Shown: positions 33,907-63,539 of the stretch, piece by piece
Layout of the letters: each line of letters starts with the position of its first letter
Position numbering within the stretch: the stretch's first letter is position 1
Source of the DNA: Sipunculus nudus
Taxonomy: Eukaryota; Annelida; Sipuncula; Golfingiida; Sipunculidae
Direction of reading: 5' to 3'
Length of the DNA stretch: 64,000 nt
Assembly: GCA_026874595.1 (NCBI GenBank)
Contig: CM049319.1
Coordinates: 65,092,417 to 65,156,416, forward strand
Position numbers and translations under genes: made by a program
The notes under the pieces: generated by a model
The model's database searches: none
Seen by the model: the letters and a program-made list of their open reading frames with translations, nothing else
Told to the model about the DNA's origin: nothing

Positions 33907-36900
33907 CTGATAAAACATGATACACAGTATGACTATGAAACACAGTGTGACTATGATACACAGTATGACTATGATACACTGTATGACTATGACACACAGT
34001 ATGACTATGACACACAGAATGACTATGACACACAGAATGACTATGATACACAGTATGACTATGATACACAATATGACTATGATACACAGTATGACCATGA
34101 TATACAGTATGACTATGACACACAGAATGACTATGACACACAGAATGACTATGACTCACAGTATGACTATGAAACACAGTGTGACTATGACACACAGTAT
34201 GACTATGACACACAGAATCACTATGATACACAGTATGACTATGATACAAAGTATAGCTATGATACACAGAATGACTATGATACAGAGTATGACTATGATA
34301 CAGAGTATAACTATGACACACAGTTTGACTATATACACAGAATGACAATGATACACAGAATGACTATGATACACAGTGTGACTATGATACACAGAATGAC
34401 TATGATACACAGTATGACTATGATACACAGAATGACTATGATACACAGAATGACTATGAAACAAAGTATGACTATGATACACAAAATGACTATGATACAC
34501 AGAATGACTATGACACACAGAATGACTATATGATACACAGAATGACTATATGATACACAGAATGACTATGATACACAGAATGACTATGATACACAGAATT
34601 ACTATGACACACAGAATGACTATGATATACAGAATGACTATGAAACAGAGTATGACTATAAACACAGTATGACTATGACACACAGAATGACTATGATACA
34701 CAGAATGACTATGATACACAGAATGACTATGATACACAGCATGACTATGATACAAACATCACTAAAGATATTGTCCAGATTGATGCCCCGTGCAGAACAT
34801 GTTAAGAAAACAGACCTACCCAACCTGCAGAACCATTCCTTTGGTTTGAAGTTCAACCAAGACCATGGCATACCATAGGAACAGACTTGTTTGAGCTAGA
34901 CAGAACAAATTACCTATTCATAGCCAACTACTACACCATGGTATACATTCACACAAAAGGTAACACCACTGAGCCCAAACGGAATCTTATACACTTCAAT
35001 GAAGCAGATGATGGGCAAACATGTATTCCAACAAAATTTGTCATCGACAACAGTCCACATTACGCTAGCCAAGAATTCTCAGATTTTGCCAAAGCCTTGG
35101 GATTCTAGCACATTTCAACTTCTCCTAGAAGACCATAAGGTAATGGATTCATAGAACAAACAATTAAAACAATCAAACAAACGCTGATGAATGCAAAAGC
35201 AACAAATACTGTTATTGACTTTGCAACGCAAATCAGCAATCACCTGGAAAGCTCAGCAGAATTACTCCTGGGATGGTCTAAAGATAAAAACAGTACTCCC
35301 ACCTGAACTTGAAAACTTAATCAGGAGCAATGAAGATATTCAACAGGAACTTGTCACTCACCAGGAATCGCAGAAATATTATCATGATCAAACTGCTCTA
35401 TAGAGAGGATTTCAGCCATTAATCCCAGGACAGAGTGTGACAATTCCAGACCCAGATACACATCATTGGAAACCTCCAATTGCTTGCATTTATAGGCAAG
35501 CCAACCAAGATCATACATCGTGGAGACCACTAATGGGCATTTACTCCGATGTAACACACAGGACATCAGAAATGTACCACAGCAGCCATTTCTAAACCCT
35601 GGGAATATGTAAACAGACCCCAGTGAAACTTGACAGGAAGATGAACTTGAAAGGACAACTGACAACTCACAAGATAGCTCTGAAATTGAACCTCTAACAA
35701 AAAATCCAAGACACGTTTCATTTACCAACCCGCTTGAGCAGCCAATGCCACCATCTACTGATCAGCGTTGTACATGGTCTTGCAGAATGTTTAGAAGTCC
35801 AAATCAACTTATCCAGAACATGTAGGATCCACAGAATGGCTGTGATGTTGCTTAGTTTAGTTACAGCACATAACTGCTCATAAGTATATTGATGCTAAAT
35901 TAAGTTTCAGCACACTATTATCTGCTCATAAGTATACTGAATATAGTTAATTTTTCTTCACAGACAGCTATTGTGACAACTACCATATTTAAAATGATTG
36001 CTTGTATTTTGTGAACATGACGGTTTTCTTACATATACGTACCGCAATACAAAACATTCATTATCATTACTGGACTCTGTGATCTCTTAAGAACAACATA
36101 CTTTTATCTTTATTTGAGAAAAGGGGCTGTAATAGTACAGTAAAATACTGATCCGAGCTCCCCCGGCACACCTGTGTATCACTAGTGCTAGTCAACATGG
36201 CCGTTTTATCACAACTTGTTTTGGTGAGTTACTTTGCTGCCTTTGTGTCGCCTATATAATTCATATCACACAATAAGAAACCATCACACGTATCATCACT
36301 ATCATATACAGTACCACTATGATATACAATATCACTATGATAAGCAGCATCACTTGCATTTAATGCTCAGATACCATATACAGTATACTTTTGTATAAAG
36401 ACCACCCAATGCAGCAATATGACATCTGCTTACATGACCATAGTTCTAACTATAGCCGAGCATGTGAAGAACCAGCTACCAATAACATTTAACATGGACA
36501 TCCCCTGCAACATGACTACTTGATGGTGCTTTCAGCAGAAAAGTTAGCAGGATTTTATGGGATGTATATATTAATGAATTTTTTTAAAAGTTTATTTATT
36601 TTACATAGACTGTACAAATAGTTATTGTAATTAACCAAGATCCTATAGCTTACATGGTGGCATTCAGCAATGCCTAGTTAATATGCCACACAAACGCATG
36701 ACACAGACAAACCCATGAAACAATTAAATTTTAAACTCTACTTTTTAGTCCTTGCTAAGCAGATTTATGGTTAATTTTCATTCAATGTGACAACTCAGAG
36801 GTGGACTGGAGTTTCATTCTCTGAATAATACAATTAAAGGAAATATATAATCATTGTAACAAATAACATTATAACAGTTTTTTTATGGTGTTTTTTAAGC

Positions 36901-45100: not shown

Positions 45101-48100
45101 CTCGGCCAAAAATCTCTGAACTGGAACCATTCAAACAAACTTGAGAGAGATTGTTCCAGGGATCATTTCTGTGAAATATTGGATAATTTGGCTGGACAGT
45201 TTCAGAGAAGATTTTTAAAGGTTTTTATGCTTTTTCTCTATAAAATCTAAATTAATGCAGATACCCAATAGTAAGCTCCAGGGCACCAAGTTTCACATGT
45301 GACTAATTCTTACATGCAATTTGGAGGTGCTAGCTCTGACAGTTTCTGACTTACAGCCATGGATGGCGGAAAGCCAGCCCTGGACAGCTGACGGCTGACG
45401 ATGGACGGACGACGCTGGGCCATCGCATAAGCTTACAGGTTCGCTAAAAAGTGGTTTCTGGGACCCTGACCTTTGGTCTTGTGACCCAAAAATTAACAGG
45501 GTTCTTGCTTTATTAGTTGCAATCCATATGTCAATCCAAATTGCAGATATCATCTTGAAACAAATTTGTGGATGGACGAATAGACAGACAGATGCTAAGA
45601 TGAAAAGACAGAAGGACAAGGTGATTATTATAGGGCACCTACTTATGATCGATAGATGAAACACAAGAGACACTGGATGAAACCTTAGCTGAGAAACTGA
45701 TATGATTGCTGTCATTTAAGTCTCAAAATTGGAAAAATAAAATCATAAAAATTAGAAAAATACAGATGGTGCCAGCAGGTTTCAACACGCTTGTAGTGTG
45801 ACCAACACTGATATGGCTGTATCATAATAATGCTGCCAATTCCTAACAAGTGACCCATGGGTCATGACGCTCAGCTGACTGGGAAGAGATTCGCAAAAGG
45901 AAATTTTATCATCAGAATGGTAGTATATACCCATTCAACTGAAGCATCAAACAGATTAACCAACAGGCCAAGATTTAGTCTGTATTTATATATCTCAAAA
46001 ATAGAGAAAAATGTGTAAACTTTTAAAACTAGAATACGGGTAACCTACAAGTGACTACATGTATCTGCCAAAATCGGATAGTGAGGCATGGATTGAGTGG
46101 CAAGGGGAAATAGAGTGAGGTATGTTGCATATTAGCATGGATGTCTGCAGCCTAAATGTGTATGTAGGTTGTGCCACCTACCACAAATCCAGAAAGCTGT
46201 CCAAGTTGTATACACCTGCAAAATTTTAGGCAGAAAAGTCAAACCACTACATGTATATGAGCGATTTTTGCCCATGGCAGACAAACAGACAAACACTGTG
46301 CAAAAATCTTTGCAGGTAACCCCTCCAGTTTTGTGTATGATAAAGACCTATGTGAGATCTAAACACATGCACAATTTTGGCCCAATCGGTCAAATGGTTC
46401 CTGAGATATGAGCTTGGATGTGTCCAGCGTTAACTATAATGTAGGTGGCGCCACCTGTCATAAAATCAAGAAAGCTGTCCACGATGTATAAACCTGCAAA
46501 ATTTTAGGCAGTTATGTCAAACCACTACAGAGAAATGAGTAATTTTAGGCCACGGCAGACTAACAGACAGACGCTGTGCAAACATTGTTACAGGTGGCGC
46601 CACCATTTTTTGTGTATGTTACAGAGCTATCAAAGGGCTACATTTGTATAAATTTTATTTCCTGATCGGTCAAACGGTTCCCGAGATATAAGCTTGGATG
46701 TCATCAGCGTGAACGTGAACGTAGGTGGCGCCACCTGTCATAAAATCAAGAAAGCTATCCTGGATGTATACACATGACGAATTTCAGGTGAATTAGTCAA
46801 TTCACTGCAGAGATATGAGTGATTTTAACCCAAGGCAGATGAACAGATGGACACTGTGCAAACATGGTTACAGGTGGCGCCACCATTTTTTGTGTATGTT
46901 ATAAAGCAATCCAAGGGCTACATTTGTATCAATTTTATTTCCTGATCGGTCAAACGGTTCCCGAGATATGAGGGTTTATGAGTGGAAACAGACCCACAAA
47001 TGGACACTGGATAGAGAGGAAAGGTCAGAGGTCAATGCAAATTGGTAAGGCACCAGTTCACATGTGACCCGATAATAGGTGTCAGTTTGGGAAAAATCGG
47101 TCCATTAGTCTCCGAGGAGCTCTCTGGAAACAAACGCCGCGGCGGCGGAGGAACTCGGTCAAAAACATAGTATCCGCAAAACTTCGTTTTGGCGGATACA
47201 AAAATACAGGTGGCTCCACCAGTCTGCAGAAACTAATAAAAACACTTAATGGTCAATACCCATGCAAAAAAATCATGGTGATCTCTGCATTAGTTGTTCA
47301 GATACTTCAGTTTTTGTATCAAATTGTCCATTATTCTGAGGGATACTTCGGAGTCCTATAGCTTGAAGGATATGGGTAACAGAGACCTAATTTCAAGTTT
47401 CCACAGGCACCTTTCATGGGCCTCCTTGCATGACAAGAATGAAGATTCTAGGTCCAGTTGTTGCGATTTGTACCCTGTTGACAGATAACCACATCTTTAA
47501 AGGTCTCAAAAAAAAGAAAAAAATTTGTAAACATTTGAAAAAAAAAAATAGAGGTGGCACACCCAGTCTGCAGAAACTGATGGAACAGCTCATGATCAAT
47601 ATGTATGCCTAAAATCATGACCATCAGTGTTGAAGTTATTGAAATACTGCAGTTTTTGTATCAAATTTTCCATTATTCTGGGGGGGAGGGAGGTATTTTG
47701 GACCCATACAGCTTAAAGAATATGGGTAACAGAGACCTAATTTCAAGTTTCCATGGAGACTTTTCATGGGTCTCCCTGTGTGTCAAGAATGAAGATTCTT
47801 GGTCCAGTTTTTATGATTTGTGCCCTGTTAACATATGTTCATATCTTTTAAGGTCTCAAAAATACAGAAAAATTTCGTAAAAGAAAACGAACAAATACAG
47901 GTGGTGCCACCAGTCTGCAGAAACTTATGAAACACTCCATGATCAATATCCATGCAAACAATTATGGTTATCTCTGCATTAGTTGTTCAGATACTTTAGC
48001 TTTTGTATCAAATTTTCCATTATTCTGAGCTGTACTTTGGAGTGCCATAGCTCAAAGGATATGGGTAACAGAGACCAAATTTCAGGTTTCCTTGGAGACT

Positions 48101-51100
48101 TATCATGGGTCTTCCTGTGTGTCAAGAACGAAGATTCTAGGTCCAGTCGTTACAATTTGTACCCTGTTGACAGATAACTACATCCTTAAAGGTCTCAAAA
48201 ATGGAGAAAACAATTCGTGAACATTGAAAAATACAGGTGGCGCCACCAGTCTGCACAAACTGATGAAACATCTCATGATCAATATGTATGTCGAAAATCA
48301 TGACCATCAGTGATGTAGTTAATGAGATATTGAAGTTTTTGTATGAAATTTTGACTATTCTGGGGGGTAATTTTGGGCCCACTAGCTCGAAGGATATGGG
48401 TAACAGAGACCTAATTCTGGTTTCCATGGAGACTTTTCATAGGTCTCTCAGTGTGTCGAAAATGAAGATTCTAGGTCCAGTCGTTACGATTTGTGCCACG
48501 CTAACAGATGACAGCATCCTCAAAGGTCTCAAAAATAGAGGAAAATATCGTAAAAAATCAAACAGTACAGGTAGCGCCACCAGTCTGCAGGAACTGATCG
48601 AACATCTCATGATCAATATGTATGCCAAAAATGAAGACCATCAGTGATGTAGTTATTGAGATATTGAAGTTTTTGTATGAAATTTTTTACTATTCTGGGG
48701 GGTACTTTGGGGCCCCATAGCTCAAAGGATATGGGTAACAGAGACCTAATTTCTGGTTTCCAAGGAGATTTTTCATGGACCTCTCAGTGTGTCAAGAATT
48801 AAGATTCTAAGTCCAGTCTTTATGATTTGTGCCTTGTTAACAGATGTTTACATTTTTAAAGGTCTCAAAAATAGAGAAAAAAATTCGTAAAAAAATCGAA
48901 AAATACAGGTGGCGCCACCAGTCTGCAGGAAGTGATGTAACATCTCATGATCAATATGTATGCCAAAAATCATGACCATCAGTCAAGTAGTTAATGAGAT
49001 ATTGAAGTTTTTGTATGAAATTTTTGACTTTTCTGGGGGGTACTTTGGGACAACATAGCTCGAAGGATATGGGTAACAGAGACCAAATTTCAGGTTTCCA
49101 TGGAGACTTATCATGGGTCTCCCTGTGTGTCAAGAACGAAGATTCTAGGTCCAGTCGTTACAATTTGTACCCTGTTGACAGATAACTACATCCTTAAAGG
49201 TCTCAAAAATGGAGAAAACAATTCGTGAACATTGAAAAATACAGATGGCGCCACCAGTCTGCACAAACTGATGAAACATCTCATGATCAATATGTATGTA
49301 AAAAATCATGACCATCAGTGATGTAGTTAATGAGATATTGAAGTTTTTGTATGAAATTTTTGACTATTCTTGGGGGTAATTTTGGGCCCCATAGCTCGAA
49401 GGATATGGGTAACAGAGACCTAATTTCTGGTTTCCATGGAGACTTTTCATAGGTCTCTCAGTGTGTCGAAAATGAAGATTCTAGGTCCAGTCGTTACGAT
49501 TTGTGCCACGCTAACAGATGACAGCATCCTCAAAGGTCTCAAAAATAGAGGAAAAAATCGTAAAAAATCAAACAGTACAGGTGGCGCCACCAGTCTGCAG
49601 GAACTGATCGAACATCTCATGATCAATATGTATGCCAAAAATGAAGACCATCAGTGATGTAGTTATTGAGATATTGAAGTTTTTGTATGAAATTTTTTAC
49701 TATTCTGGGGGGTACTTTGGGGCCCCATAGCTCAAAGGATATGGGTAACAGAGACCTAATTTCTGGTTTCCAAGGAGATTTTTCATGGACCTCTCAGTGT
49801 GTCAAGAATTAAGATTCTAAGTCCAGTCTTTATGATTTGTGCCTTGTTAACAGATGTTCCCATATTAAAGGTCTCAAAAATAGAGAAAAAAATTCGTAAA
49901 AAATCGAAAAATACAGGTGGCGCCACCAGTCTGCAGGAAGTGATGTAACATCTCATGATCAATATGTATGCCAAAAATCATGACCATCAGTCAAGTAGTT
50001 AATGAGATATTGAAGTTTTTGTATGAAATTTTTTACTTTTCTGGGGGGTACTTTGGGGCCACATAGCTCGAAGGATATGGGTAACAGAGACCTAATTTCT
50101 GGTTTCCAAGGAGATTTTTTATGGACCTCTCAGAATCCCAAGTTACAAGGTTCTAGGTCCAGCGGTTACGATTTGTGCCTGGTTAACGGACGGACAGACG
50201 GACAGACGGACGACGGACAAAGAGTGATCGCTATAGCTCAGATGACTTTCAGTCAGCTGAGCTAAAAAATCATGCACTAGGACCACATATCATGCATAAT
50301 AAATTTTGACATTTTACAATCGCAAACAATGTGATGACAACTCTGTTAACTATGGTGTCACAATGATGCAGTGATGTCACATGGTGGCAAAAGTGATGTC
50401 ACAATACTGTCACATTGGTGGTAAGGTGAGGATATTATATTGTAACAGAGACAGAAACATAATATCACAAGGTATATCACAAATGCTGTCCCGGTCAGTG
50501 TGATGTGATAACATGTACATTTACTGCATTAATGTGGCTTTGTCAGAAATATGGTAAACAACTGTCACATTGTGGTCACGGTGATATCACAAAATATAGT
50601 GACAAGGTTTCATGCAGAACATTTTTCCTTACAAGCTGATGGAGCGCTGTAAATAATGCTTGCGTCCTCCAGTGAAAAGCATGAACGCGTCCTCAATGAG
50701 TCGGTGAAGCCTGTGTATGGCTTCGTCCCAGGGGTCAACGTAATGACTCTCTAGCTCCGGTAAATGGTTCATATAATCCCAATAACTGTCATCCTCAGAT
50801 TCCGGGAAGTCAAACTCATGCGCTACTTTATTTTGCTGCATTATAAATGACAACAATATGCACTCAATGCAAATTAGAAATGTTGGTAAATATAATGTTT
50901 ATTTTGCTCACAGATTTTCTTGAGAGAAAAGGTAACACTGAATATGTTTGGTCAAACAAAATTTAAGAACAAGTGACCCAGGGGTCATGATGCTCAGCTG
51001 ACCAGGAAGACATTGACAAAAGTAATTTATCATCTGAATGTCAAATTTGAATGAAATACTTTTTCCAAACTTGACCTTTTGTATAAAATCATCCAATATT

Positions 51101-54100
51101 CATTGTGGTACTATGGAGCTCTGTAGCATGAAGGATATGGGTAACAGACACCTATTTTCAAGGTTTACAAGATGACTTTTCAGGGGTCTCCCAGCATGTC
51201 AAAAAATAAAATTATAGGTCCAGTTATTATGATTTGTGCCCTGTTAACAGATGACCAAATGTTTATTCTGGGGGGTATTTCAAAGCCGTATAGGATGAAG
51301 GATATGGGTAACAGAGATGTAATTTCAGGTGCACAAGGAGACTTTTCAGGGGCCTCCCAGCATATCAAGAAAGGAGATTCTAGGTCAAGTCATTATAATT
51401 TGTGCTCGGTTAACAGATGACCAAATCTTTATTCTGGGGAGTACTCCGAAGCCCCAGAGCATGAAGGATATGGGTAACAGAGACCTAATTTCAGGTTTCC
51501 AAGATGTTTCATGGACCTCCCTGCATGTTAAGAAAGAAGATTCTAGGTCAAGTCATTATGATTTGTGGCCTGTTAACAGATGACCAAATGTTTAAAGGTC
51601 TCAAAAATCAAGAAAAAAATTCTTAAAAAATCAAAATACAGGTGGCACCACCAGTCTACAGAAACTGATGAAACAAGCCATTATCAATACAAATGTGGAC
51701 AATCATGGTGATCAATGCATTAGTTATTGTATCAAATTTTGCATTATTCTGGGAGGAACTTCCGAGCCTCATAGCTGAAAGGATATCAGTAACAGAGACC
51801 TTATATCAGGTTTCCATATAGACTTTTTATGACCGTCCTTGCATGTCATGACAGAAGATTCTAGGTCCAGTTGATATGATTTGTGCCCTGTTAACAGATG
51901 ACCAAATCTTAAAAGGTTTCAAAAATAGAGAAAAAAAACTTTAAAAAATCGAAAAAACACATGTGGCGCCACCAGTCTGCAGAAACTGATGAAACATCAT
52001 GATCAATATCCATGCAAAGAATCATGGTGATAAATGCATTAGTTGTGGACAATCATGGTGATCAATGCATTAGTTATTGTATCAAATTTTGCATTATTCT
52101 TAGGGTACGTGGGAGCCCCATAGCTCAGAGGATATAGGTCACAGTGACCTAATTTCAGGTTTCCAAGGAGAATTTTAATGGACCTTCCAGGATGTCAAGT
52201 GAGAAGATTTCAGGTTCAGTGGTTATGATTTGTGCCCTGTTAATGGACAGACGCCCGGATGGCCGGACGGATGACGGACAAAAGGTGATCCCTATAGCTC
52301 AGATGACTTTCAGTCAGCTGAGCTAAAAATTGAAAAAATACAGGTGGCGCCACCAGAATGCAGAAACTGATGAAACATTTCATGATCAATATCCATGCAA
52401 AGAATCATGGTGATCAATATAATAATTGTTTAGATACTTGAGCTTTTGTATCAAATTTTCCATTATTCTGGGGGGTACTTCGGAGCCCCATAGCTCAGAG
52501 GTTATGGGTAACAGAGACCTAATTTCAAGTTTTTAAGGAGACTTTTCATGGGCCTCTCAGCATGTCAAGAGAGAAGATTCTAGGTCCAGTTGTTACGATT
52601 TGTGCCATGTTAACAGATGACCGCATCTTATGAGGTCTCAAAAATAGAGAAAAATTCATAAAAATAAAAAAATACAGGTGGCGCCACCATACTGCAGAAA
52701 CTGATGACACATTCCATGATCAATATCCATGCAAAGAATCATGGTGATCACTGCAATAGTTGTTTAGATACTTGAGCTTTTGTATCAAATTTTCCATTAT
52801 TCTGGGGGGTACTTCGGAGCCCCATAGCTCAAAGGTTATGGGTAACAGAGACCTTATTTCAGGTTTCCAAAGAGACTTTTTATGGGCCTCCCTGCATGTC
52901 AAGAGAGAAGATTCTAGGTGTAGTCGTTACGATTTGTGCCCTGTTAACAGATGGCCGCATCTTAAGAGGTCTCAAAAATAGAGAAAAATATTGGTAAAAA
53001 TCGAAAAAATATAGGTGGCGCCACCAGTCTGCAGAAACTCATGAAACACTCCATGATCAATATCCATGCAAAAAATCATGATGATCAATGCATTAGTTGT
53101 TCAGATACTTGAGCTTTTGTATCAAATTTTCCATTATTCTGGGGGGTACTTCGGAACCCCATAGCTCAAAGAATATAGGTCACAGTGACCTAATTTCAGG
53201 TTTACAAGGAGAATTTCCATAGACCTCCCAGGATATCAAGAGAGAAGATTCTAGGTCCAGTTGTTATGATTTGTGCCATGTTAACAGATGACCGCATCTT
53301 ATGAGGTCTCAAAAATAGAGAAAAAAATTCGTAAAAATAAAAAAAATACAGGTGGTGCCACCATACTGCAGAAACTCATGAAACACTCCATGATCAATAT
53401 CCATGCAAAAAATCATGATGATCAATGCATTAGTTGTTCAGATACTTGAGCTTTTGTATCAAATTTTCCATTATTCTGGGGGGTACTTCAGAACCCCATA
53501 GCTCAAAGAATATAGGTCACAGTGACCTAATTTCAGGTTTACAAGGAGAATTTCCATAGACCTCCCAGGATGTCAAGTAAGAAGATTCCAGTTCTAGCGG
53601 TTAAGATTTGTGCCCTGTTAACAGACAGACGCCCGGACGGCCGGACGGACGACGGACAAAAGGTGATCCCTATAGCTCAGATGACTTACAGTCAGCTGAG
53701 CTAAAAACCTGTTAGAGACATAGGTCTGTAGTGTCAGTTGATCATTTTAACAAAACAGTTCAGACCTACAGAATTACCCTATACAGGGGTACATTAATTA
53801 CCTGTATAATATGGAGGTCTTTCCTTGCAGTCAAAATGATTGAGTTGTTCACAAAAAATTACAACAATATCCATATAGTACCAGCTAAAGTATTAATTTT
53901 ACCTGCGAGTGTATATAATTTGGCACAATATATATAAATAGATATATACTGATCGATGCAGTTAGAAGTGACCAAACTTGCTATATTGCCAGTCCTTGAC
54001 TTAAACATGGTAATTATCTAAATGAATGACTTGGTTTAATGCCGTTAATGGCATCCAGTGAATCAGGCCCCCCAGGCTGGACAGCTGCAAATTCATTTGC

Positions 54101-57100
54101 AGCATACCAGGGGCAAAGTTACTAATTATAAGTTTCATGCTACAGGGAGTATATAGCTCCCAAAGCTTGGCACATATGTAGACAAACATGTGTTTAAGGG
54201 TGAATAAACCAGAAACAGCTCTCATTGGCTGATCCTTTGTTCAGCCTATTTTGTCTATGGGGTGATAATGGGTTAGTCCACTTTGGTGAAAAAGGGGTGG
54301 GTGGGTATCTTAAATAGCATTACTAATGTCCAAGCTGATCTAACATACCTGAGGTACGGCTCTCTGGGTGGCAACTCTTTGAGGCTGTATGGGAGAGAAG
54401 TTGGCACTATCTGTCGTCGGACCGAACATGTCACCCATCTCAAGGCTCTCCTCTGGTCGGTTCGCTACCTCCTGGTGACCTGTTCTCTTGTGTGGACGCT
54501 TCTTTTTCTTTTTCCTAAATAAATATCAACATCATGAACTTGAACCTTTGAGCCAGTCCAGGTGTTAGAGTATTCAGCATATATGATTATTAAAACTACT
54601 TAATGGAAGATATTTGGTTTCAATAAGAAACAGCAAATTTCAGCCCTGACATGACCTTCTTTCAATTATTTAAATGAAGAGGAAATTAACTGAGCGCCTG
54701 TTTGGTATCCAGGTTTGCTTCAGTTTTAGAGGCACATCACTGTGTCATCATGCTATTTGTATTTATAATTTTAAAGTTCATATTTTTTTACGAATGGTAT
54801 TTTCTCCTCGTAATAAAGTTTAGGAGAGGGGTCTGTGGTAATATGAAAGGGATGTTCCTTGTTTACTAGAACTGTGTGGAGTCCTGTGAAATTCTCTTGA
54901 GACATCATCCTGGAGTATAAAAAGGGGCTATAAGGGAGGCTTTCCACTTACTGAGATTATTGTGGCATTTATTTGCTGGTGTTAATATAACATTACTATT
55001 TTAGGCCTGCATGATGTTTTCCTTATGGACACAAGAAGAAAATCATCTTGAAATGGATTTAGAGAAAAAGGATGTGAAGTTATTTGACCAAAAAGAAAGA
55101 GTACAAAGTTGTTTTCTATATTAGTATAATACTTTATACTAACACAAAATATACTATTTGCCTTGTCAGAGTGGCATGCCATCCCAAAGTTGAGAAATGC
55201 TTTGTAAATCTTAATGAGGATACAAATATTTTTGTTATTTTTTTACACCTCATGCCCTACAGGTACACTGTCAATTAAAATAAACCAGAGTGAATGTTAT
55301 ATATGACTGTGTTCTTTCAAACAACACCTGCCATGTGCAATAAAAAAATAGTTAAAAATCAATAAGCAAACTGGTTAATTATATAATTTCTGACTGCATG
55401 AACACTAGCATATTTCACAAATGTTGGTGAACTTGTACATATCACAGGAAATGACTCAAGTCATCACAGAGATGGGATTTACACTAAGGTTTGTAGTTTC
55501 ACTTATATTCTTTTGTATTATTTCATCACTTGTAGCATAAAACAGATATGTACATGACATCCATGCTGTGATTACCAGATGTTTACATGACATTCATGCA
55601 ATAGGATGGACAGGGATGTAGGACTCGAGTCATCATTTGAACTCGAGTCCACTTTTTTAGGGAATTGAACTTGGACTGGAGGTTCCTGGTCTTAGACTTG
55701 TCCAGTAGAAATAAAACAAAGTGCCATGTGCTAAGTACTAACAGAATATTGCAAATAATAACATTATATATACCAAACTTTGCTCAGCATCAAGAGAATA
55801 ATGTGATTAACCATTTTAGTAAAAGCACGTGTGAACTAACTTTTAAATGTACATGATAATCTGAAAATTTCCATTTCAAATTGTTTTTAAGGATATTTGT
55901 ACTGAACTTGGACTTGGTTGCAAAATGACTTAAGACTTGAAGAAAGTGGACTTGGACTCCAACCTCAAGGACTCAGACTTGCACTCGAGCAGCCTGGACT
56001 CAGACTTGCAACTGGATTTGGATGATGTGAACTTGACTATGTCGTTGTGGGTGGATGATTGTTTCATTGCAGTTTTCTGTATGACTTGTGTTGAGACTCT
56101 AGAAGGCCTTCCAGTCCAATATGAATGCTTATTGAGTCATATTCAAGGCTACTACAATGCTGTATAGTTATAAGCAATATAAAGATTGCAAATATATGAA
56201 TTAAGTTAAATGAACAGGAACCAACAAACCTAGGTTGCTGGACAAACACATCAGGCATCTCTTGTTGTGACGGTGGTTCACCGAGGATGTTCTCCACTTC
56301 ATCCTGGAACTGTTGGTACGATGACTTACTCTCCTCACTCTCTCCTGTCACAAACAATTAAAGCTTTGTTATTAGCAATTATGATGCCAGGTTAGTGTCT
56401 ATATTTAACTGTCAGTATGTGTTAATGATATGTTTTTGATTAATTTGAAGCATTTGTAATTGCGTTTAAATTCACCAAGTTGGATTTTAACCCAACCCTG
56501 AGGTGCACACTAAATGCTTCAGTTGGTTGCATATCTATTTTTCGAATTGAATTTCAGATGTTTGTTCAGATGTAAATGCATATTTAAATGTAAATTTTTG
56601 GTTATATACAGAAAACAATGTTCAGGTGTAATTCAGGTGTAACAGAAGTCATACCTTACTCCACTTTTGATCTAGTAAACACACAGTTAAATTATGCCTT
56701 GGATCTCATATGTGTGTGCAATGTTTAAATGTGTATACATTTAATATATGTACCACCTGATCGTTGTTTCCTCATGGATCGTTTCCTTGCCCTCTGCTTG
56801 TTTCTCCAGCGCTCAATATCAGCCTTCTGCTGCAGTGACTGTCGCAACTAAAAAATCAAGACAAAATCCTTAGGCTGCATGAAAATGTATCACAGTTGTA
56901 CAGAGACACTTGAGATGCCAAGGAAACAAGAAATAAGATATAAACCAAGAAAATGTACAAGACCTGCTGAAGACATAGAAAAGAAAATATGACAGAAAAA
57001 AAAACAAGATATTAAGCAAGGATTTATGATAAAGGCTGATGTGAAACTGAGATAAACATTCACAGATTATTTACCCAAAACATATTGATATGTTAATGAA

Positions 57101-60100
57101 AAGGTAAATATAAATTAATTTCAATCAAGCTTGGAAGCAAAGAAGTTGCCATTTGGGGATCCTTAAACTTTATCAGTAGAAGTAGTGTATAGCTTAGGTG
57201 AGGCCATAATAATGCCTGGATCTCTCAGCTTAATACTTCATTTAATTTGAAATTTCAGGGGAACTCTCGCAGAAATTGATGGCAAAGACCTCATTAGTGG
57301 AAATGTGGAAATGAGGAGTATTTGTCTGTCTTTCCCTCTGTCTGTTAGAAATATAGAGCCTTTAGCACAATGACCTTATGTGCCATCCCTGTCCTGAGTA
57401 TTTGAGGCATAGTCACTAAACTGACAGCACCGATGCTTTCATCATGAGCTATACAAGGTTAAGTTAAATATAGATGAACTTGATGCATTTTTCAAGGTCA
57501 CTAAGGGAATCTTGCTGAAATGATGTTTGTAGAGGCACAGTCACTAAACTCACACAATTTTGATGCATCTCATGAACGGCTAGGTCATGATCAAACCCGG
57601 ATGAGCTTATCACAGTTTTCAAGGTCACAGGCATCATGTTTGTTACTCAAATTACCCTTATCAGTCCTTTTAAGAAGTGTCTCTCAAATTTCCCAATGGT
57701 TTTAAAAACCTTTCCTGCAGATAGGTATAGCAGTGGGCTGCTGGCCATAAATGGTACAATTTTTTGTTCATTCTTTAATCATATGCAAATAGGGGAACCA
57801 TTGTGTCATGTGACCTAACGATCAATGATCCCATGTCAGCTAATACATGACCATGAAAGGAGGGGGACAGATCAACTTTACTTGTTCCTTTTGCATCAAG
57901 CCATATATTCACGTATTAAACCAGCCCTATTTTACATATATTAATGGTGATTCTGACCTCTTGGTCTCTGCTGAGAGGTTCTTGTGGCTGGCCAGCCACT
58001 AGTGGTGTCTGCACTACAGGTGGTAATTTAATGGCATGTGTGGTGGTGCGAATCTTCACAGGCCCAGCAGGGGGCGCTGTTGTGTCATCAGGTCTGTTAA
58101 AATCATCATCTGAAATTTAGAAAATACAGAAATTCACTAAATGTACAAAAATACATCTTGAATACAGATGAAGATTGATATGTTGATAATACAATTTTCA
58201 TAATTTAAGAAATTTTAATCAATCATTTAAATAATTAAATAATTTTAGAAAATATTACTAAGCTACATATTCAGGGCTTCTGCCGATGTAAAAAGACTGT
58301 CCATTTTCTTGTGAGTGAAGCAGAATAGGCAAAGGCAACAGGGGTGGTGGGGGGGGGGGGGGGGTTAGTTGTGGGAGGGATGTATTCCCCTCTCATGATA
58401 TAGAAAATTACAAGAAATCAATGTTGAAAGAACAAATGTTATGGAAAATTCTTTATTTTTTCTTCCACTTGACATGTTTTTAAAATATATATAAATATAA
58501 AGAAAATTTTCTCTCAGCTTCTGTATTATAGTCTCAAACATATACATGCACATATGCTTCAAATTCTTTGAAATCTTGTTTTTGTTTGTATTAAACACTG
58601 ATAGAAAGCAATACATTTGTTACTTTGTTTTGTTTACATTAATCTGTAAAAACAGAAAAACTTTTTGTCACAGTTAAAGTGAAATAATGATTAAAAATTC
58701 AATAAAATTCTTAAAAAAGCAACCACCTTCCTCTGCTGGTCCAACTGTTCCCATCTTCTGTCTCTTGGTGCTGCTGTCTCTCTTAGGACCATGTGACCTA
58801 CTTCTTGATCGACCTTTCCCCTTTCCAGTTCCTTTGGATTTTCCATTTCTACTGGCCATCAGTTGCTGGTCTTCCTGTCTCTCAAAGAGTTCTGACCCCG
58901 CCCCCTGCTCTCTCATTGGCTCTCTTGCCCTTGGAGGTTTTCTGGGAGGAGCCTGTTCTTGTTCATATTCCATGTGATCTCTTCTTGGAAGCTGTCTGTC
59001 AGTACCCTGTTTTGACAAACCATTTTTCTCTGGTAAGGCCCTCCCCTGCCTGTCTGATGGCAGACGGCCATTTCTGCCTTCCTCCATGTTCAGTTCTGTC
59101 CTTGCCACATCAAAACCCTGTGAAAACCAATAAGTTAATAAACTTTCTGCAAGATAATTTACAAGAGTTATAATAAAGGGTAAAGAATATGAAGAAAATA
59201 TATAATATTTTGTTCTCCTGAATGCAATTAAGTATTACTAAAAAACCTAATGAATTATTTTATTATTATAATGTTCCATGCCACCAGTTTTCCCAAATTC
59301 AGAGTAATTTATACATGAAGCAAATGGTTTAGATCTTCTACAAAGGTTGCAAAAAGCAGCTTGGATCCTTCATATCAGTGAACAACAATGTTATCCGTTT
59401 AACCAGATTATCCTTAATGTTATAAAAGTTTCATAGCCCCAGGTGCCCCCTCATACTGGATTGCTGTGATTTTCTTTTCTTTTTTTCTTTTAACCTTTTC
59501 TGCCAGAAGACTCACCCTTATAATCAAAAGTAGTGACTAGTATGAAGTGTGACAAAACAGTACAAAGTTACCAGTTTCAAGAGCTCATGTGACCAATTTT
59601 CTGTAAAGACTTTTAATATTCAAAGCATTACAACTTACTTTTTCAAAGCTTAGCTTTCTAACTTTATATCATGAAGTAAAATTAATAAGTATCTGAATTG
59701 TACAATTACCTTGAAAACATAGCTTGTGTTATTTAAAGGTTTACAACTTACTTTTAACTAAACCCTTTTATTATAAGGTACCTTTTATAAGAACCTGTAT
59801 TGTATATTTATCCTGAATCATACAGCTTGTGTTACAACTTCCAACCCCAACCCCCCTCCAAGGTGTAGCTTTCTATCATTATATCAAGAAGGAATTGTTT
59901 ATAGTATCAGTATTGTACATTTACCTTAAATTCTCATTTATTTTAATTTTCAGTATTGTACATTAACCTTGAATTCATATTTATTTTAATTTTTACTATT
60001 GTACATTTACCTTGAATTCAAGTTTAAGTTTCAGTATTTTACATTTACCATGAATTCACATTTATTTTAACTTTCAGTATTGTACGTTTACCTTGAATTC

Positions 60101-63100
60101 CCATTTGTTTTAAAAAGCCTCCCCCAAGTGTGATGCACTCAAGATACAAATATAACCAAGTGTTTTGCACTCATGACACATGACTGTTCCATGGGGATAT
60201 CATATCTACATCACTGAATTGTATGAAAGTTGTATACCAGCCCTGTAATGCCAGGTCTGAAATGTCTGCTTTGTCCTGCTTGTTGTTGTTTTCCCAATCA
60301 CATTCCAACCCGGTTTGAAAATGATGAAATAGTCATTCAAAATGGCAAAGTTTATGGTAAATGCCAAAAATCCTGTCTTAATCCTGTTTCTCGCATACAC
60401 CTTTCAAAGTCATGACAAATATGTCAGATATATGGTTTTCTAGTGAAGTTAAATAGAATAAGACGCTTTTAATAGGTGTGTTTAATTCTCACTACAAGCC
60501 AAGAATGATCTTTTAAGTGTCAGTATTGTTCATTTACCTTGAACTCCTGCTTATCAGTATTGTACATTTACCTTGAACTCCTGCTTATCAGTATTGTACA
60601 TTTACCTTGAACTCCTGTTTATCAGTATTGTACATTTACCTTGAACTCCTGCTTATCAGTATTGTACATTAACCTTGAACTCCTGTTTATCAGTATTGTA
60701 CATTTACCTTGAACTCCTGTTTATCAGTATTGTACATTTACCTTGAACTCCTGTTTATCAGTATTGTACATTTACCTTGAACTCCTGTTTATCAGTATTG
60801 TACATTTACCTTGAACTCCTGTTTATCAGTATTGTACATTTACCTTGAACTCCTGTTTATCAGTATTGTACATTTACCTTAAACTCCTGTTTGTCAGTAT
60901 TGTAAATTTACCTTGAACTCCTGTTTGTCACTATTGTACATTTACCTTGAACTCCTGTTTGTCAGTATTGTACATTTACTTTGAACTCCTGTTTATCAGT
61001 ATTGTACATTTACCTTGAACTCCCGTTTATCATACTTGACAAGCTGTGCTCCCTGTCTGGGACTCTGCTGTGACCTAGGAGTGGTCTTTCCTGTCTGGTA
61101 TGACTGCGGGGCTCGGGTACATTTGAAGTAAATAAACAGCACCAGCCATACCAGCAGCACTGCTCCAGCAATGCTTCCTATCACAGCCCCAGCAATCCAG
61201 GCCCTGTTTTCTACAGGAGGTGGAACAGTCGGAGGAATGAATGCTGCAAGTACAATAACACAGTTTTCAGAACAAGGGTTTCATTTTATCATTTTTATGA
61301 GTAGGGTTTGGTGCATTTATGTTTGTTGTCCAGTTTATGAGCAGGGTTGGACTAATTAATGTTTGTTGTCAAGTACACATACCACAAGTACAGGTGCACA
61401 ACCAGGACATGAATGCAAGTCTCCTTGAGGGCTGAGTCAAATCCAACAGAGTGCAAAAGCCCAGGACAAAATCATCCTTACTTCAAAAGTCACAGAAAAT
61501 ATGATATTTTGTTACTTTAGCAATGGTACTATCTTTCATATTTGAATCTCACATTTGATCTTACATTATCATGGGTGAAACAGGAATGAATTAACTCTTC
61601 AAGCCACTTTGATATCGGACTTCATCTTGTATGTATAGTGCATGGAATCAAACTCAGAAGTGCTATTAAGACTTGCTGTGGAACCAAGTGGCCAACATGA
61701 ACAGAAAATTACTCTACAAGTGATTTCAGATACCTGAAAATCATGTGGTGCTTCAGGATTGCTAACCTTGGTGTGTCCTGCTTAAAACAAGTATGCTAGA
61801 CAGATTTTGTGGAGACTCATTTTGTCGCCTTTTGCAAATTTCAAGGGTTTTATAATTAAGTCTTTGCTACTTACGTTCAGCTCTTACAACTACCACATAG
61901 CCAAGTTCAAGGGCCATTTCTTGGTCGCTGACAGTGTTGAGGGCAGCTACGGCTTCAGCAGGTTCAGTCAGGTTGTCATGCCTCAAAACGTAGTAAACTA
62001 ACTCTGTGTTGGTGACGTCAGAGGGATTCCCTCCAAATGTGTTCCAGCGTGTTATGTTTGTCATCTGTAATTTCATTAGAAGATCATGGGAATAGGTGCA
62101 TTATATAAGGATTTTTTAGCCATTGGAGCATAAAGTGCACTCACAATTTCTGAGAGTAAGTATCAACTTATATTTATTAAGTTCATATTCCACTGCTGCC
62201 ACCATAAGATATTTCTTAAACAGAATACCATGTTACATATAACTTCATATAAAAACTTTGGAGTGTAGGTTTTAATCCCACCACTAATATGCGTTGACTT
62301 AATTGTAATGTTACATGTAACATCAACAAGTGTTTCAGAATGTGGACTTGATCCCACTTCTACCACCATGTGATAATAACCTAACATGCCATATTACAAA
62401 TTACTTTATTTTGCAATGTTGAACTACTATGTGTGGTAGAGGTAGCTCCACTAAATCATAACCCCTGACTAGCTCATGTTTGGGGTGACATTACAAGATA
62501 TCAAAATTGAAGTTAACCATGAACAAAACAAAAGTTAAGATAAAATGCGTTGGGTCAAACAGTCTAATCCTTCTGCATACTTGGATAGCATATAACATTT
62601 CAAAGAAACATATCTTTGCTAGACTAATAAACTAATGGCATGTGGTTCATGGGTATGTAAAGCTCCACATGAAACATCCAAATTTCACCTGGGTGATCAT
62701 AGGTGGCAATGTTTGGAAGTTCACTGCTTCATGTGGATGTAGTTCTTCTGATCTGACTGTAACTACTTTTGATGCCATCTTGTAGTGTTTTGAAATGATT
62801 GTAATTTCATGATCAATCATCAGTAAAAATTGGTTGTCCTCTTAATTGACTGATAATCGCAAATAATCAGTTGTTTAGACGTATGACCTTTTGGAACAAA
62901 TATAGAACTGTACATCATTTCAACTGATATGTAGGCGTACATTCAGGCTAATTATGTCACTTTTACAGCATACATGTCTACATAGTAACTTAGGAATTAA
63001 GTAATTTTAGTAAATGCAAACTTCTCTAGTTTGCTTGCACAATGTATATAAAAGCACATATTTACTATTCATAAAGCCTAAGTCACATGCAAAACTTTGC

Positions 63101-63539
63101 AACTGATTATGGCACTGCAAGATCAATCATCAGATCTTTGACATCAACCCAACCAATCATTGGTAATAATTGATCACTATCATCTAGTGTTATATGTCTG
63201 TAATTCCCTGTGACATTCTATCCAACATAACAAAGGAGTTATGACTCAGATAAACTCTAAGCATCGTAATATTACAAATAACACATTACAAATAAACAGC
63301 TACAACTATGACCTAGTCTGTCTATCAAATCAACTGACCGTGTGTACTCACTTGGACCGTAGTATTATCCACTTTGACTGCCCTTTTCTGACGCTGTCCT
63401 GTGGAGCCACCATCTGCATTTTCTTGTTGTTGACTTCCTTGTCTCTGGTAGCCACGTTCATACAGACGAGCAAATGACCATTCCATGCGGGACCGAAATT
63501 GTAACAGAGTTACATTTTGATTGAGAGGCACTTTAATCA
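33220..63539 (-). CDS. KIAA1549: KIAA1549/KIAA1549L family membrane protein, 3' part
   Basis: Single-pass type I membrane protein. Join (descending) 63539-63352, 62064-61875, 61243-61014, 59117-58727, 58109-57958, 56847-56757, 56344-56230, 54514-54349, then 50835-50633 or 43035-42899, then 42386-42297, 39744-39686, 37982-37861, 33906-33220. All junction phases agree; 893 aa with the first alternative, 871 with the second. The order is: SEA-like membrane-proximal ectodomain, TM helix, then a long cytoplasmic region with basic and low-complexity stretches. Recognition rests on motifs I recall from the vertebrate family: GFD-x-A just after the TM, a basic R-N-K-x-R-x-R-A-K-R segment, D-A-R-Q-x-M-H-x-LLDDAF, and the C-terminal ELLRLSQ. 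Invertebrates are expected to have one gene for the KIAA1549/KIAA1549L pair. Vertebrate members are poorly understood; KIAA1549 is known from fusions with BRAF in pilocytic astrocytoma and from retinal disease. The 5' exons lie beyond the window. Confidence 0.92.
33917..34756. repeat. 18-bp minisatellite beside the last KIAA1549-like acceptor
   Basis: About 46 copies of 'tgactatgatacacagta' with base variants and a few 1-4 bp length changes. It begins about 10 bp from the splice acceptor of the terminal exon. The period is divisible by 3, which leaves several frames open on both strands (YDYDTQ on +, HSHTVC/IVILCI types on -). Confidence 0.92.
34757..35640 (+). pseudogene. Ty3/gypsy-type integrase remnant
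   Basis: Fragments in two or three frames show, in order, a C-x-x-C zinc-finger end, the first catalytic Asp in GTDLF, the second in VIDNSPHY, a Glu in an F-I-E-Q-T-I context, and a longer downstream region with the W-K-x-Q and Y-H-D-Q patterns seen after the core. Stops and frameshifts break it in several places, so it is inactive. No LTRs recognised. It sits in the last intron of the KIAA1549-like gene, in antisense orientation, immediately after the 18-bp array. Confidence 0.75.
35641..37120. other. Intron sequence, nothing recognised
   Basis: AT-rich intron. Around 36290-36350 are weak copies of the ATCACTATGATA-type words related to the 18-bp array. Confidence 0.3.
37121..37668. repeat. 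17-bp minisatellite
   Basis: About 32 copies of 'ctaacataaccaccctg' with CCCCA/CCCTG variants, in the last intron, about 190 bp from the donor of the preceding exon. Strongly strand-asymmetric (C/A rich on +). Confidence 0.92.
37861..37982 (-). CDS. KIAA1549: KIAA1549-like exon before the last
   Basis: 2 nt plus 40 codons, acceptor atatttacag, donor TCT|GTAAGA. Encodes PKHTPMFVSSGKASTHNG, then ENPYSVSDEAARIIPTQAS. Phases match on both sides. Confidence 0.8.
37983..39685. other. KIAA1549-like intron, nothing recognised
   Basis: AT-rich, only short ORFs without splice context. Confidence 0.35.
39686..39744 (-). CDS. KIAA1549: KIAA1549-like short exon
   Basis: 1 nt, 19 codons, 1 nt; acceptor gtatccacag, donor CATG|GTAGGA. 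Encodes DGEGSTEVHGSTQRETAHH. Accepted because both phases fit its neighbours exactly; the peptide itself is low-information. Confidence 0.7.
39745..42296. other. KIAA1549-like intron with (TA)n at 42123-42170
   Basis: AT-rich. A pure TA microsatellite near 42123-42170 is the only recognisable feature. Confidence 0.4.
42297..42386 (-). CDS. KIAA1549: KIAA1549-like exon: Ser/Lys-rich
   Basis: 1 nt, 29 codons, 2 nt; acceptor attttgtag, donor CAGAG|GTATTA. Only the phase-2 reading is open (RKNRIRPSSKGPSSKQTSV...); the phase-0 reading stops after GAG AAA AAA. This fixes which upstream splices are productive. Confidence 0.82.
42899..43035 (-). CDS. KIAA1549: KIAA1549-like alternative exon B (LLDDAF helix)
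   Basis: 45 codons plus 2 nt, acceptor ttttacag, donor AAGAG|GTCAGA. A Thr/Asp/Glu-rich lead (TDTVTTDTEEEE) then SLQDARQRMHALLDDAFSLI and RPPSK. This is the closest match to the vertebrate D-A-R-Q-x-M-H-x-LLDDAF motif. The further donor CAG|GTCTTC would put the next exon out of frame and meet a stop at once, so it was rejected. Confidence 0.85.
43433..45440. repeat. Family-2 tandem repeat, block 1
   Basis: Begins TTTTAAAACTAGAATATCGG. Monomers of about 280 bp carry 'aatgtaggtggcgccacctg' and, about 130-150 bp later, 'aggtggcgccaccagttttg', with 'gttcctgagatatgagctt' between monomers. Palindromes or one- to two-base variants at about 43568, 43727, 43857, 44006, 44136, 44284 and 44956. Right end is less clear, near a GACGG-rich stretch. 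Confidence 0.75.
44580..44629. repeat. GTCTAGAC palindrome cluster
   Basis: GTCTAGACGTCTAGAC at 44580-44595 and 44601-44616, then GTCTAGAC at 44622-44629, followed by a poly(C) run of about 16. Each 16-mer is a perfect palindrome. Confidence 0.9.
45847..50263 (-). mobile_element. Family-1 tandem-core element E4, interrupted by family 2
   Basis: Starts CAAGTGACCCATGGGTCATG, ends with (GGAC)n-rich sequence and the hairpin AGCTCAGATGACTTTCAGTC-AGCTGAGCT. The first monomer is broken at about 46020 and resumes at about 47200; the gap is family-2 block 2. The rest consists of ~336-bp monomers. It lies in the intron between alternative exons A and B of the KIAA1549-like gene. Confidence 0.78.
46021..47199. 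mobile_element. Family-2 element, block 2, inserted into E4
   Basis: Begins TTTTAAAACTAGAATACGGG, like block 1. Has about four monomers with GGTGGCGCCACC at 46443, 46594, 46724 and 46874, and ends in a 30-nt hairpin GTATCCGCAAAAC-ttc-GTTTT-GGCGGATAC at 47170-47199. Beyond it the interrupted family-1 monomer continues. Confidence 0.72.
50264..50632. other. Unique intron sequence next to alternative exon A
   Basis: Rich in GATGTCAC/GTGATATCAC words, otherwise nothing recognised. Confidence 0.3.
50633..50835 (-). CDS. KIAA1549: KIAA1549-like alternative exon A (IEDAF helix)
   Basis: 67 codons plus 2 nt, acceptor ataatgcag, donor CTT|GTAAGG. An acidic, Tyr/Trp-containing segment (ESEDDSYWDYMNHLPELE) leads to WDEAIHRLHRLIEDAFMLF and a basic end. 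The helix is equivalent to LQDARQRMHALLDDAFSLI of the exon at 42899. Phases 0 in and 2 out equal those of that exon, so one or the other can be used but joining both breaks the frame. Confidence 0.82.
50970..53702 (-). mobile_element. Family-1 tandem-core element E5 (composite)
   Basis: Reverse orientation copy closely resembling E2: distal end CAAGTGACCCAGGGGTCATG, same short monomers next to it, an internal head ending at 52324, and the final hairpin head ending at 53702. ~336-bp monomers with palindromes at about 52343, 52679, 53017 and 53350. Perfect AGGTCACAGTGACCT at 52136, 53177 and 53514. Confidence 0.78.
54349..54514 (-). CDS. KIAA1549: KIAA1549-like exon: polylysine segment
   Basis: 1 nt plus 55 codons, acceptor atttatttag, donor CAG|GTATGT. 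Begins RKKKKKRPHKRTGHQEV, a strong nuclear-localisation-like basic run that has a counterpart in vertebrate members, then an acidic/Pro segment. It ends phase 0, which both alternative downstream exons accept. Confidence 0.9.
55620..56050. repeat. ACTCGAGT/GGACTTGG-type degenerate repeat
   Basis: Words such as GACTCGAGTC, ACTCGAGTCCA and GACTTGGACT recur and produce a false Asp/Leu/Ser-rich ORF at 55937. Related, complementary words occur at 960-1100. Confidence 0.5.
56230..56344 (-). CDS. KIAA1549: KIAA1549-like exon: YQQFQDEVENILGEP block
   Basis: 2 nt, 37 codons, 2 nt; acceptor tgtgacag, donor CCTAG|GTTTGT. YQQFQDEVENILGEPPSQQE and PDVFVQQPR correspond to the family segment in which a Q-x-x-I-D-x-I-L helix is followed by P-S-V-F-x-x-P-R. 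Confidence 0.9.
56757..56847 (-). CDS. KIAA1549: KIAA1549-like exon: conserved basic helix
   Basis: 30 codons plus 1 nt, acceptor ttttttag, donor CAG|GTGGTA. LRQSLQQKADIERWRNKQRA then RKRSMRKQRS, aligning with the conserved L-R-x-K-x-x-I-E-x-x-R-N-K-x-R-x-R-A-K-R block of the family. Confidence 0.9.
56848..57957. other. KIAA1549-like intron, nothing recognised
   Basis: No repeat family or exon seen. Confidence 0.3.
57958..58109 (-). CDS. KIAA1549: KIAA1549-like exon: Pro/Thr-rich linker
   Basis: 2 nt plus 50 codons, acceptor aatttcag, donor GAG|GTCAGA. Encodes DDFNRPDD, then VKIRTTTHAIKLPPVV and QPQEPLSRDQE. Similar position and character to the Pro-rich linker before the basic segment in vertebrate members. 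Confidence 0.85.
58347..58364. repeat. Poly(G) tract
   Basis: Run of about 18 G with one interruption, in an intron of the KIAA1549-like gene. Confidence 0.85.
58727..59117 (-). CDS. KIAA1549: KIAA1549-like exon: cytoplasmic, GFDVA and basic/RS region
   Basis: 130 codons plus 1 nt, acceptor ttttcacag. Opens GFDVARTELNMEEG, equivalent to the family's GFDFA motif immediately after the membrane. It is followed by low-complexity charged sequence, a Pro/Arg patch and a KGKGRSRSRSHGPKR stretch that could act as a basic or phosphorylated module. Confidence 0.9.
59908..60110. repeat. Diverged ~43-bp repeats related to the splice-site minisatellite
   Basis: Five copies spaced about 40-44 bp of 'cagtattgtacatttacctt' followed by 'gaattcatatttattttaa'. 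They share the 'agtattgtacatttaccttgaa' core of the 34-bp array at 60522-61031, so appear to be an older expansion of the same unit. Confidence 0.75.
60522..61031 (-). repeat. 34-bp minisatellite containing the TM-exon splice donor, 15 copies
   Basis: Exactly 15 units without indels (510 bp). The unit on the gene strand reads GATAAACAGGAGTTCAAG followed by GTAAATGTACAATACT. The highest-coordinate copy overlaps the real exon end (GATAAACGGGAGTTCAAG then GTAAAT, exon end 61014); the other 14 lie in the intron just after it. Confidence 0.95.
61014..61243 (-). CDS. KIAA1549: KIAA1549-like exon: transmembrane helix
   Basis: 2 nt plus 76 codons, acceptor acttgcag. Pro-rich juxtamembrane stretch (FIPPTVPPPVENRAW), TM helix IAGAVLLVWLVLFIYF, stop-transfer KCTRA, then a polar region ending YDKREFK. 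The donor FK|GTAAAT lies inside the last copy of a 34-bp minisatellite; read-through into the intron gives VNVQY then stop. Confidence 0.93.
61244..61874. other. KIAA1549-like intron, nothing recognised
   Basis: No repeat family or exon seen. Confidence 0.3.
61875..62064 (-). CDS. KIAA1549: KIAA1549-like exon: SEA-like domain end
   Basis: 63 codons plus 1 nt, acceptor attacag, donor C|GTAAGT. It contains TNTELVYYVLRHDN and EMALELGYVVVVRAE, matching the family's pattern of L-V-Y followed later by MAL-x-LGY. Sequons: N-I-T, N-L-T. Confidence 0.88.
62065..63351. other. KIAA1549-like intron, nothing recognised
   Basis: AT-rich with short ORFs lacking splice context. Confidence 0.3.
63352..63539 (-). 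CDS. KIAA1549: KIAA1549-like exon: ectodomain with RQKR site
   Basis: 2 nt plus 62 codons (phase 1 start, phase 0 end), donor CAA|GTGAGT, acceptor atctttcag. The peptide has sequons N-V-T and N-T-T, an RSRMEWSFARLYERG helix, a Gln-rich linker and then RQKR|AV, a furin-type R-x-K-R site. This is the most 5' exon in the window; an upstream exon ending in phase 1 must exist outside it. Confidence 0.85.

Follow-up and report, generated by a model that had tools for sequence, protein, structure and literature searches.

A minisatellite spanning an exon-intron border repeats the splice donor of a transmembrane exon in a KIAA1549 homologue of Sipunculus nudus

Which donor does a spliceosome use when the donor itself has become the unit of a minisatellite? 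The question is raised by a locus in a window of 64,000 nucleotides from Sipunculus nudus (GenBank assembly GCA_026874595.1, contig CM049319.1, positions 65,092,417 to 65,156,416; positions given below are those of the window). Repeat detection and unit comparison resolved positions 60522-61031 of the minus strand into exactly 15 head-to-tail units of 34 bp, each joining the last 18 nt of the exon 61243-61014 to the 16 nt with which its intron begins. Their consensus is GATAAACAGGAGTTCAAG|GTAAATGTACAATACT (bar, position of the splice donor). The border of the exon itself forms unit 0 (61031-60998), and units 1-14, which follow it without a break, carry decoy donors. An earlier note on this DNA had described the unit as exon end plus intron start, with the exon boundary among the 15 units; this is correct to the base, and the donor-bearing array is confirmed as real and accurately described.

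The units differ from the consensus by 0-2 bases, with units 5-9 and 12 identical to it and one or two differences in units 0-4, 10, 11, 13, and 14. Most differences thus lie towards the ends of the array and the inner units are homogenised, as in ordinary minisatellite turnover. AG|GT is kept in 14 of the 15 units (unit 1 reads AA|GT), and the exon's unit 0 has a G where all 14 other array units have an A. A short TGAYA occurs both where the exon's unit begins, TATGATAAAC, and beyond the last unit, TACTGACACT, and this match at both array ends would be compatible with slippage. By motif similarity only, the consensus unit (e.g. 60996-61019) contains TGTACAATA, which resembles Pumilio/FBF binding sites, and CTGAT or CTGAC, a branch-point-like motif, occurs where units join.

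When six exons of the minus strand were joined in phase, one open reading frame was obtained, and a profile search with the joined protein identified the host gene as a homologue of KIAA1549 (UPF0606, PF12877) with 81.2 bits versus a cut-off of 24. The match forms one stretch from residue 45 to 405 of the protein and from 170 to 509 of the profile, and spans the membrane region as well as the cytoplasmic part. The exon model, including the exon border in the array, was inferred from phase, splice consensus, and the PF12877 profile and is not RNA-based. It starts with an upstream exon placed by phase and splice sites, the in-frame part of which (63352-63537) was used, and a second upstream exon (61875-62064) matched by the profile. 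These are followed by the transmembrane exon (61014-61243) and, placed by phase and profile, a cytoplasmic exon beginning with GFDVAR (58727-59117), in which the donor AAG|gtggtt is modelled with the least certainty, and downstream exons at 57958-58109 and 56757-56847 (LRQSLQQKADIERWRNKQR...). A later exon, probably 43035-42853, matches positions 649-674 of the profile at 16.8 bits, below the cut-off.

The transmembrane exon is bounded by the acceptor ttgcag|CATTCA and the donor TTCAAG|gtaaat (last exon base 61014, donor GT 61013-61012) with the phase kept. It encodes the transmembrane stretch (highest 19-residue Kyte-Doolittle mean of 2.69) plus 37 residues beyond it, and joins in phase to 59117-58727 as ...DKREFK|GFDVAR.... 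The Kyte-Doolittle maximum, the in-phase model, and the PF12877 match bear out the previous assignment of the copied donor to a transmembrane exon. Pfam searches with single exons gave nothing above cut-off, the best being PF12877 at 23.5 bits versus 24 with the open frame of 61875-62064 alone. The transmembrane exon by itself matched other membrane families in Pfam only weakly, and when the membrane region was searched against PDB sequences, three chance-level matches resulted (best E 0.89).

A further array adjoins a putative splice site in the same window. On the minus strand, about 46 copies of an 18-bp unit (33917-34754) end 10 bases before the acceptor of the open frame 33906-33220, adjoining the splice site without spanning it. 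The 884 bases preceding this frame contain 44 occurrences of ATAG, which ends in an acceptor-like AG. By eye, the open frame looks like the last exon of the same KIAA1549-like gene, ending ...ELLRLSQRAAEQMPGATFS*, and has no Pfam match alone. In the intron before this putative last exon, open frames of the plus strand (34806-35403) resemble, again by eye, a retroelement integrase fragment.

The consequences of decoy use were evaluated by conceptual translation. Joining the exon through each decoy to the next exon gave an in-frame VNVQY* in 14 of 14 cases, as claimed previously, and among the 15 donors tested only 61014 leads into the next exon with an open frame. All decoys give the same stop because the in-frame TGA (60996-60998), which is reached if the true donor is unused, lies within 18 nt of the intron's start; the same truncation would therefore follow from any read-through of the true donor or from intron retention, with decoys or without. 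Since the premature stop precedes several exon junctions, decoy transcripts would be expected to be targets of nonsense-mediated decay.

In the modelled pairing with U1, the true donor reached -6.8 kcal/mol and 12 of the 14 decoys were equal to it. The decoys at 60980 (-3.2 kcal/mol) and 60674 (-4.1 kcal/mol) are weaker, which refines the earlier description of 14 near-identical sites. Among the six older copies of the unit farther downstream in the intron, three reached -6.8, one -6.6, and two were weaker (-5.3 and -4.1). A value of -6.8 is not rare, as 103 of the 3748 minus-strand GT sites of the window, the array's own included, attain it. Substitutions gave no sign that copies are kept as donors, in what is a weak test with few events and low power: in the six old copies, 4 of 54 sites of the donor 9-mer had changed versus 6 of 90 other core sites, and in the array, 2 of nine substitution events, counted by hand from the unit alignment, fell in the donor versus 2.4 expected. 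The donor bases are accordingly without special conservation by these counts. RNA structure hiding the decoys was considered and is without support, as the predicted folding of the array is little better than that of 30 shuffled sequences (z -1.15).

The intron also holds older copies of the unit. A search of the window for the 24-nt core TTCAAGGTAAATGTACAATACTGA, allowing up to three mismatches, gave 21 matches, with none in 100 shuffles, and all 21 lie within one intron: 15 in the array, five at 59907-60097 (minus strand, spacing 43, 38, 43, and 43 bp), and one at 59692-59715 (minus strand), the most diverged with 3 mismatches. The core search hence recovered the five or so older copies mentioned in the earlier note together with a sixth that it had not listed. 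The stretch that holds the sixth copy (59715-59651) aligns at 80% with 59930-59866, and self-comparison revealed that the intron is also duplicated at a scale of about 65-115 bp.

The two sides of the unit are unequally preserved in these older copies. The five match the first 16 nt of the intron at 15-16 positions and the last 18 nt of the exon at 13-14 positions; in the sixth copy, 8 of these 18 match. On the exon side, the 9 nt next to the border are clearly shared, and the first 9 nt match at 5-6 positions in the five copies and at one in the sixth. Homology of these first 9 nt is uncertain because a match of 5-6 of 9 is reached by 1-6% of sites in the rest of the A+T-rich intron. The better preservation of the intron side could reflect constraint, or the first exon-side bases may be non-homologous. 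The G that sets the exon's unit apart from units 1-14 is present in three of the five older copies.

The source of the unit was sought in the whole assembly (1,426,538,692 bases, 1.43 Gb, in 153 contigs). A 27-nt core gave at least 20 matches at up to three mismatches, and 20 of 20 lie in this intron (15 in the array and five older); the counts are lower bounds, and the sixth old copy exceeds three mismatches on 27 nt. The reversed core, used as control, had no match in the 1.43-Gb assembly. Because the core was found nowhere else in the assembly, the unit was most likely made locally, within this intron. A dispersed or mobile repeat as the source was rejected, the 27-nt matches at up to three mismatches being confined to the intron. 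By DNA similarity, the array and its older copies were recovered together with one further hit on a different contig (L003, 68% identity), which proved to be an unrelated 32-bp minisatellite sharing TGTACAATACTG; a single full-length array locus was found in the assembly. A scan of a viral collection for the unit gave no matches and is uninformative.

How readily an array comes to lie on a splice site by chance depends on the repeat coverage assumed. With one 42-base row (7128-7169) excluded, tandem repeats with a period of at least 10 cover 23.6% of the window and 9.4% of the span 54349-63539, and one of the 16 exon ends tested (eight putative exons) lies in an array. With random placement, at least one of 16 ends would fall in an array with a probability of 0.99 at the coverage of the window or 0.79 at that of the span. 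In 20 sampled 10-kb stretches from two contigs, arrays of 15-100 bp with at least five copies cover 1.04%, and none of their 11 TRF rows (seven distinct arrays by reading) had a donor-like consensus. The overlap of an array with an exon border is thus uncommon per gene, the chance for 16 ends being 0.15 at 1.04% coverage, but is expected somewhere in a large genome. The window also contains arrays with a period of about 330-470 bp (7128-8719, 19190-21309, 47200-50219, and 52324-53625), some of which adjoin short TGTC, CCGTC, or GACGGACA repeats. Presumably, these arrays resemble the core arrays of Helentron-type elements.

We consider it likely that the array is a border-spanning minisatellite of the kind termed 'mirage' in amphioxus, a neutral by-product of local tandem duplication, and that the exon's own donor is mainly used. 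A 34-bp piece comprising 18 nt on the exon side and 16 nt on the intron side of the transmembrane exon's donor would have been duplicated in tandem inside the intron, and slippage or unequal exchange would then have multiplied the unit; the diverged copies some 1 kb downstream may stem from earlier rounds of amplification. The spliceosome would mainly use the 61014 donor, with the 14 copies silent or leaking a few VNVQY* transcripts that would be degraded. Against neutrality, nothing in the donor bases explains why decoys would be ignored, because 12 of the 14 pair with U1 in the model as well as the true site does, and their silence cannot be assumed because two downstream units serve as donors in human IFI6; the low power of the constraint test and the better preserved intron side of the five older copies also weigh on this side. 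Use of the decoys at a meaningful rate, the array setting the share of unproductive or membrane-stub transcripts and copy number tuning output, is nevertheless unlikely. The modelled U1 pairing, the one stop reached from all 14 decoys, and the two used units of IFI6, as given in the relevant part of PMC4526556, would argue for it. These points are opposed by the donor bases, which lack special conservation, by amphioxus mirages, reported without splicing disturbance in the passages concerned of PMC3087553 and PMC3902484, and by the position of the stop before several exon junctions, from which decay would be expected. The suggestion in the earlier note that the array tunes U1 binding or sets the isoform ratio is possible, with support that does not go beyond the anatomy. 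A more specific form of it appears very doubtful, namely that a mirage outside amphioxus, in a membrane-protein gene, would serve as a copy-number dial: every additional donor would raise the VNVQY* share, and the repeat number, which would change between individuals or even cells, would set gene output or how much full-length protein is made relative to a short-tailed membrane stub.

The direction of copying might also have been the reverse, an intronic repeat coming first and the exon end with its donor being one of its units, by a shift of the border or exonisation. The poor match of the older copies to the exon over the first 9 exon-side nt (5-6 of 9, and 1 of 9 in the sixth) and the larger-scale duplication of the intron would fit this order of events, which we nevertheless regard as unlikely: the core was found only in this intron and hence is no dispersed repeat, the reading frame runs through the border (GAGTTCAAG|GTAAAT) into the next segment of the family, and the exon's G in three of five older copies fits the exon state as the older one. 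An assembly artefact in the copy number or in the array itself is extremely improbable. Tandem arrays are often mis-sized, and PMC3087553 reports a draft assembly in which an amphioxus mirage had been put together wrongly; here, however, the units carry distinct variants in order, and the assembly is one of long contigs (68 Mb for this one; 153 for 1.43 Gb). As a clean case, probably outside the group for which such arrays were named, the locus lends itself to studying how the spliceosome chooses a single donor when a dozen pair equally with U1, and how readily splice signals multiply through tandem duplication; regulation is not shown by the array alone.

The closest known structures are the mirages of amphioxus genes, described in the pertinent passages of a 2010 globin paper as tandem repeats spanning exon-intron borders (PMC3087553). 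In these passages, RT-PCR suggests normal splicing, copy number differs between haplotypes, and mirages are proposed as a source of new introns (PMC3087553). The genes named in the corresponding parts of two papers are Adh3, with units of 10-72 bp, the globins BflGb6 and BflGb9, and troponin C (PMC3087553, PMC3902484); the 2013 paper, as far as its text on repeats goes, repeats the finding of no disturbance for Adh and troponin C and mentions similar repeats in PGBD5 (PMC3902484). The array in S. nudus shares with them border-spanning units, a true border that is one of the units, and a repeated splice signal, and its 34 bp fall within the unit range of Adh3. It differs in its host gene, a KIAA1549 homologue, in being known from the DNA of one assembly, and in lying in a genome of 1.43 Gb, larger than the roughly 0.5 Gb of amphioxus. 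By analogy, copy-number variation between individuals is plausible here as well. General literature searches returned PMC3087553 only, and the amphioxus-directed ones are no test of whether mirages have been published for other animals.

The human gene IFI6 (6-16, G1P3) is similar in that splice donors are provided by the units of a minisatellite at the end of an exon. Its unit is reportedly about 12 nt long, and additions are said to stay in frame. According to the portion of PMC4526556 on this gene, splicing uses two downstream repeat units as donors, so that three mRNA species encoding different isoforms arise, and Turri et al. 1995, judged by its title as cited in PMC4526556, PMC2572611, PMC3618361, and PMC2915984, described an IFI6 minisatellite providing multiple splice donors. 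In contrast to the isoforms there, the 34-bp unit leads to one stop from all 14 decoys in conceptual translation. A further parallel is the Rogers model, in the form in which PMC3087553 cites it, where introns are gained when AG/GT sites are duplicated in tandem. The AG|GT duplicated in tandem here is the raw material of that model, whereas no new intron or exon is seen and the repeats lie inside an existing intron. The array belongs to a kind of structure already known from lancelets and a human gene and probably harmless, and is probably a mirage outside amphioxus, in a KIAA1549 homologue.
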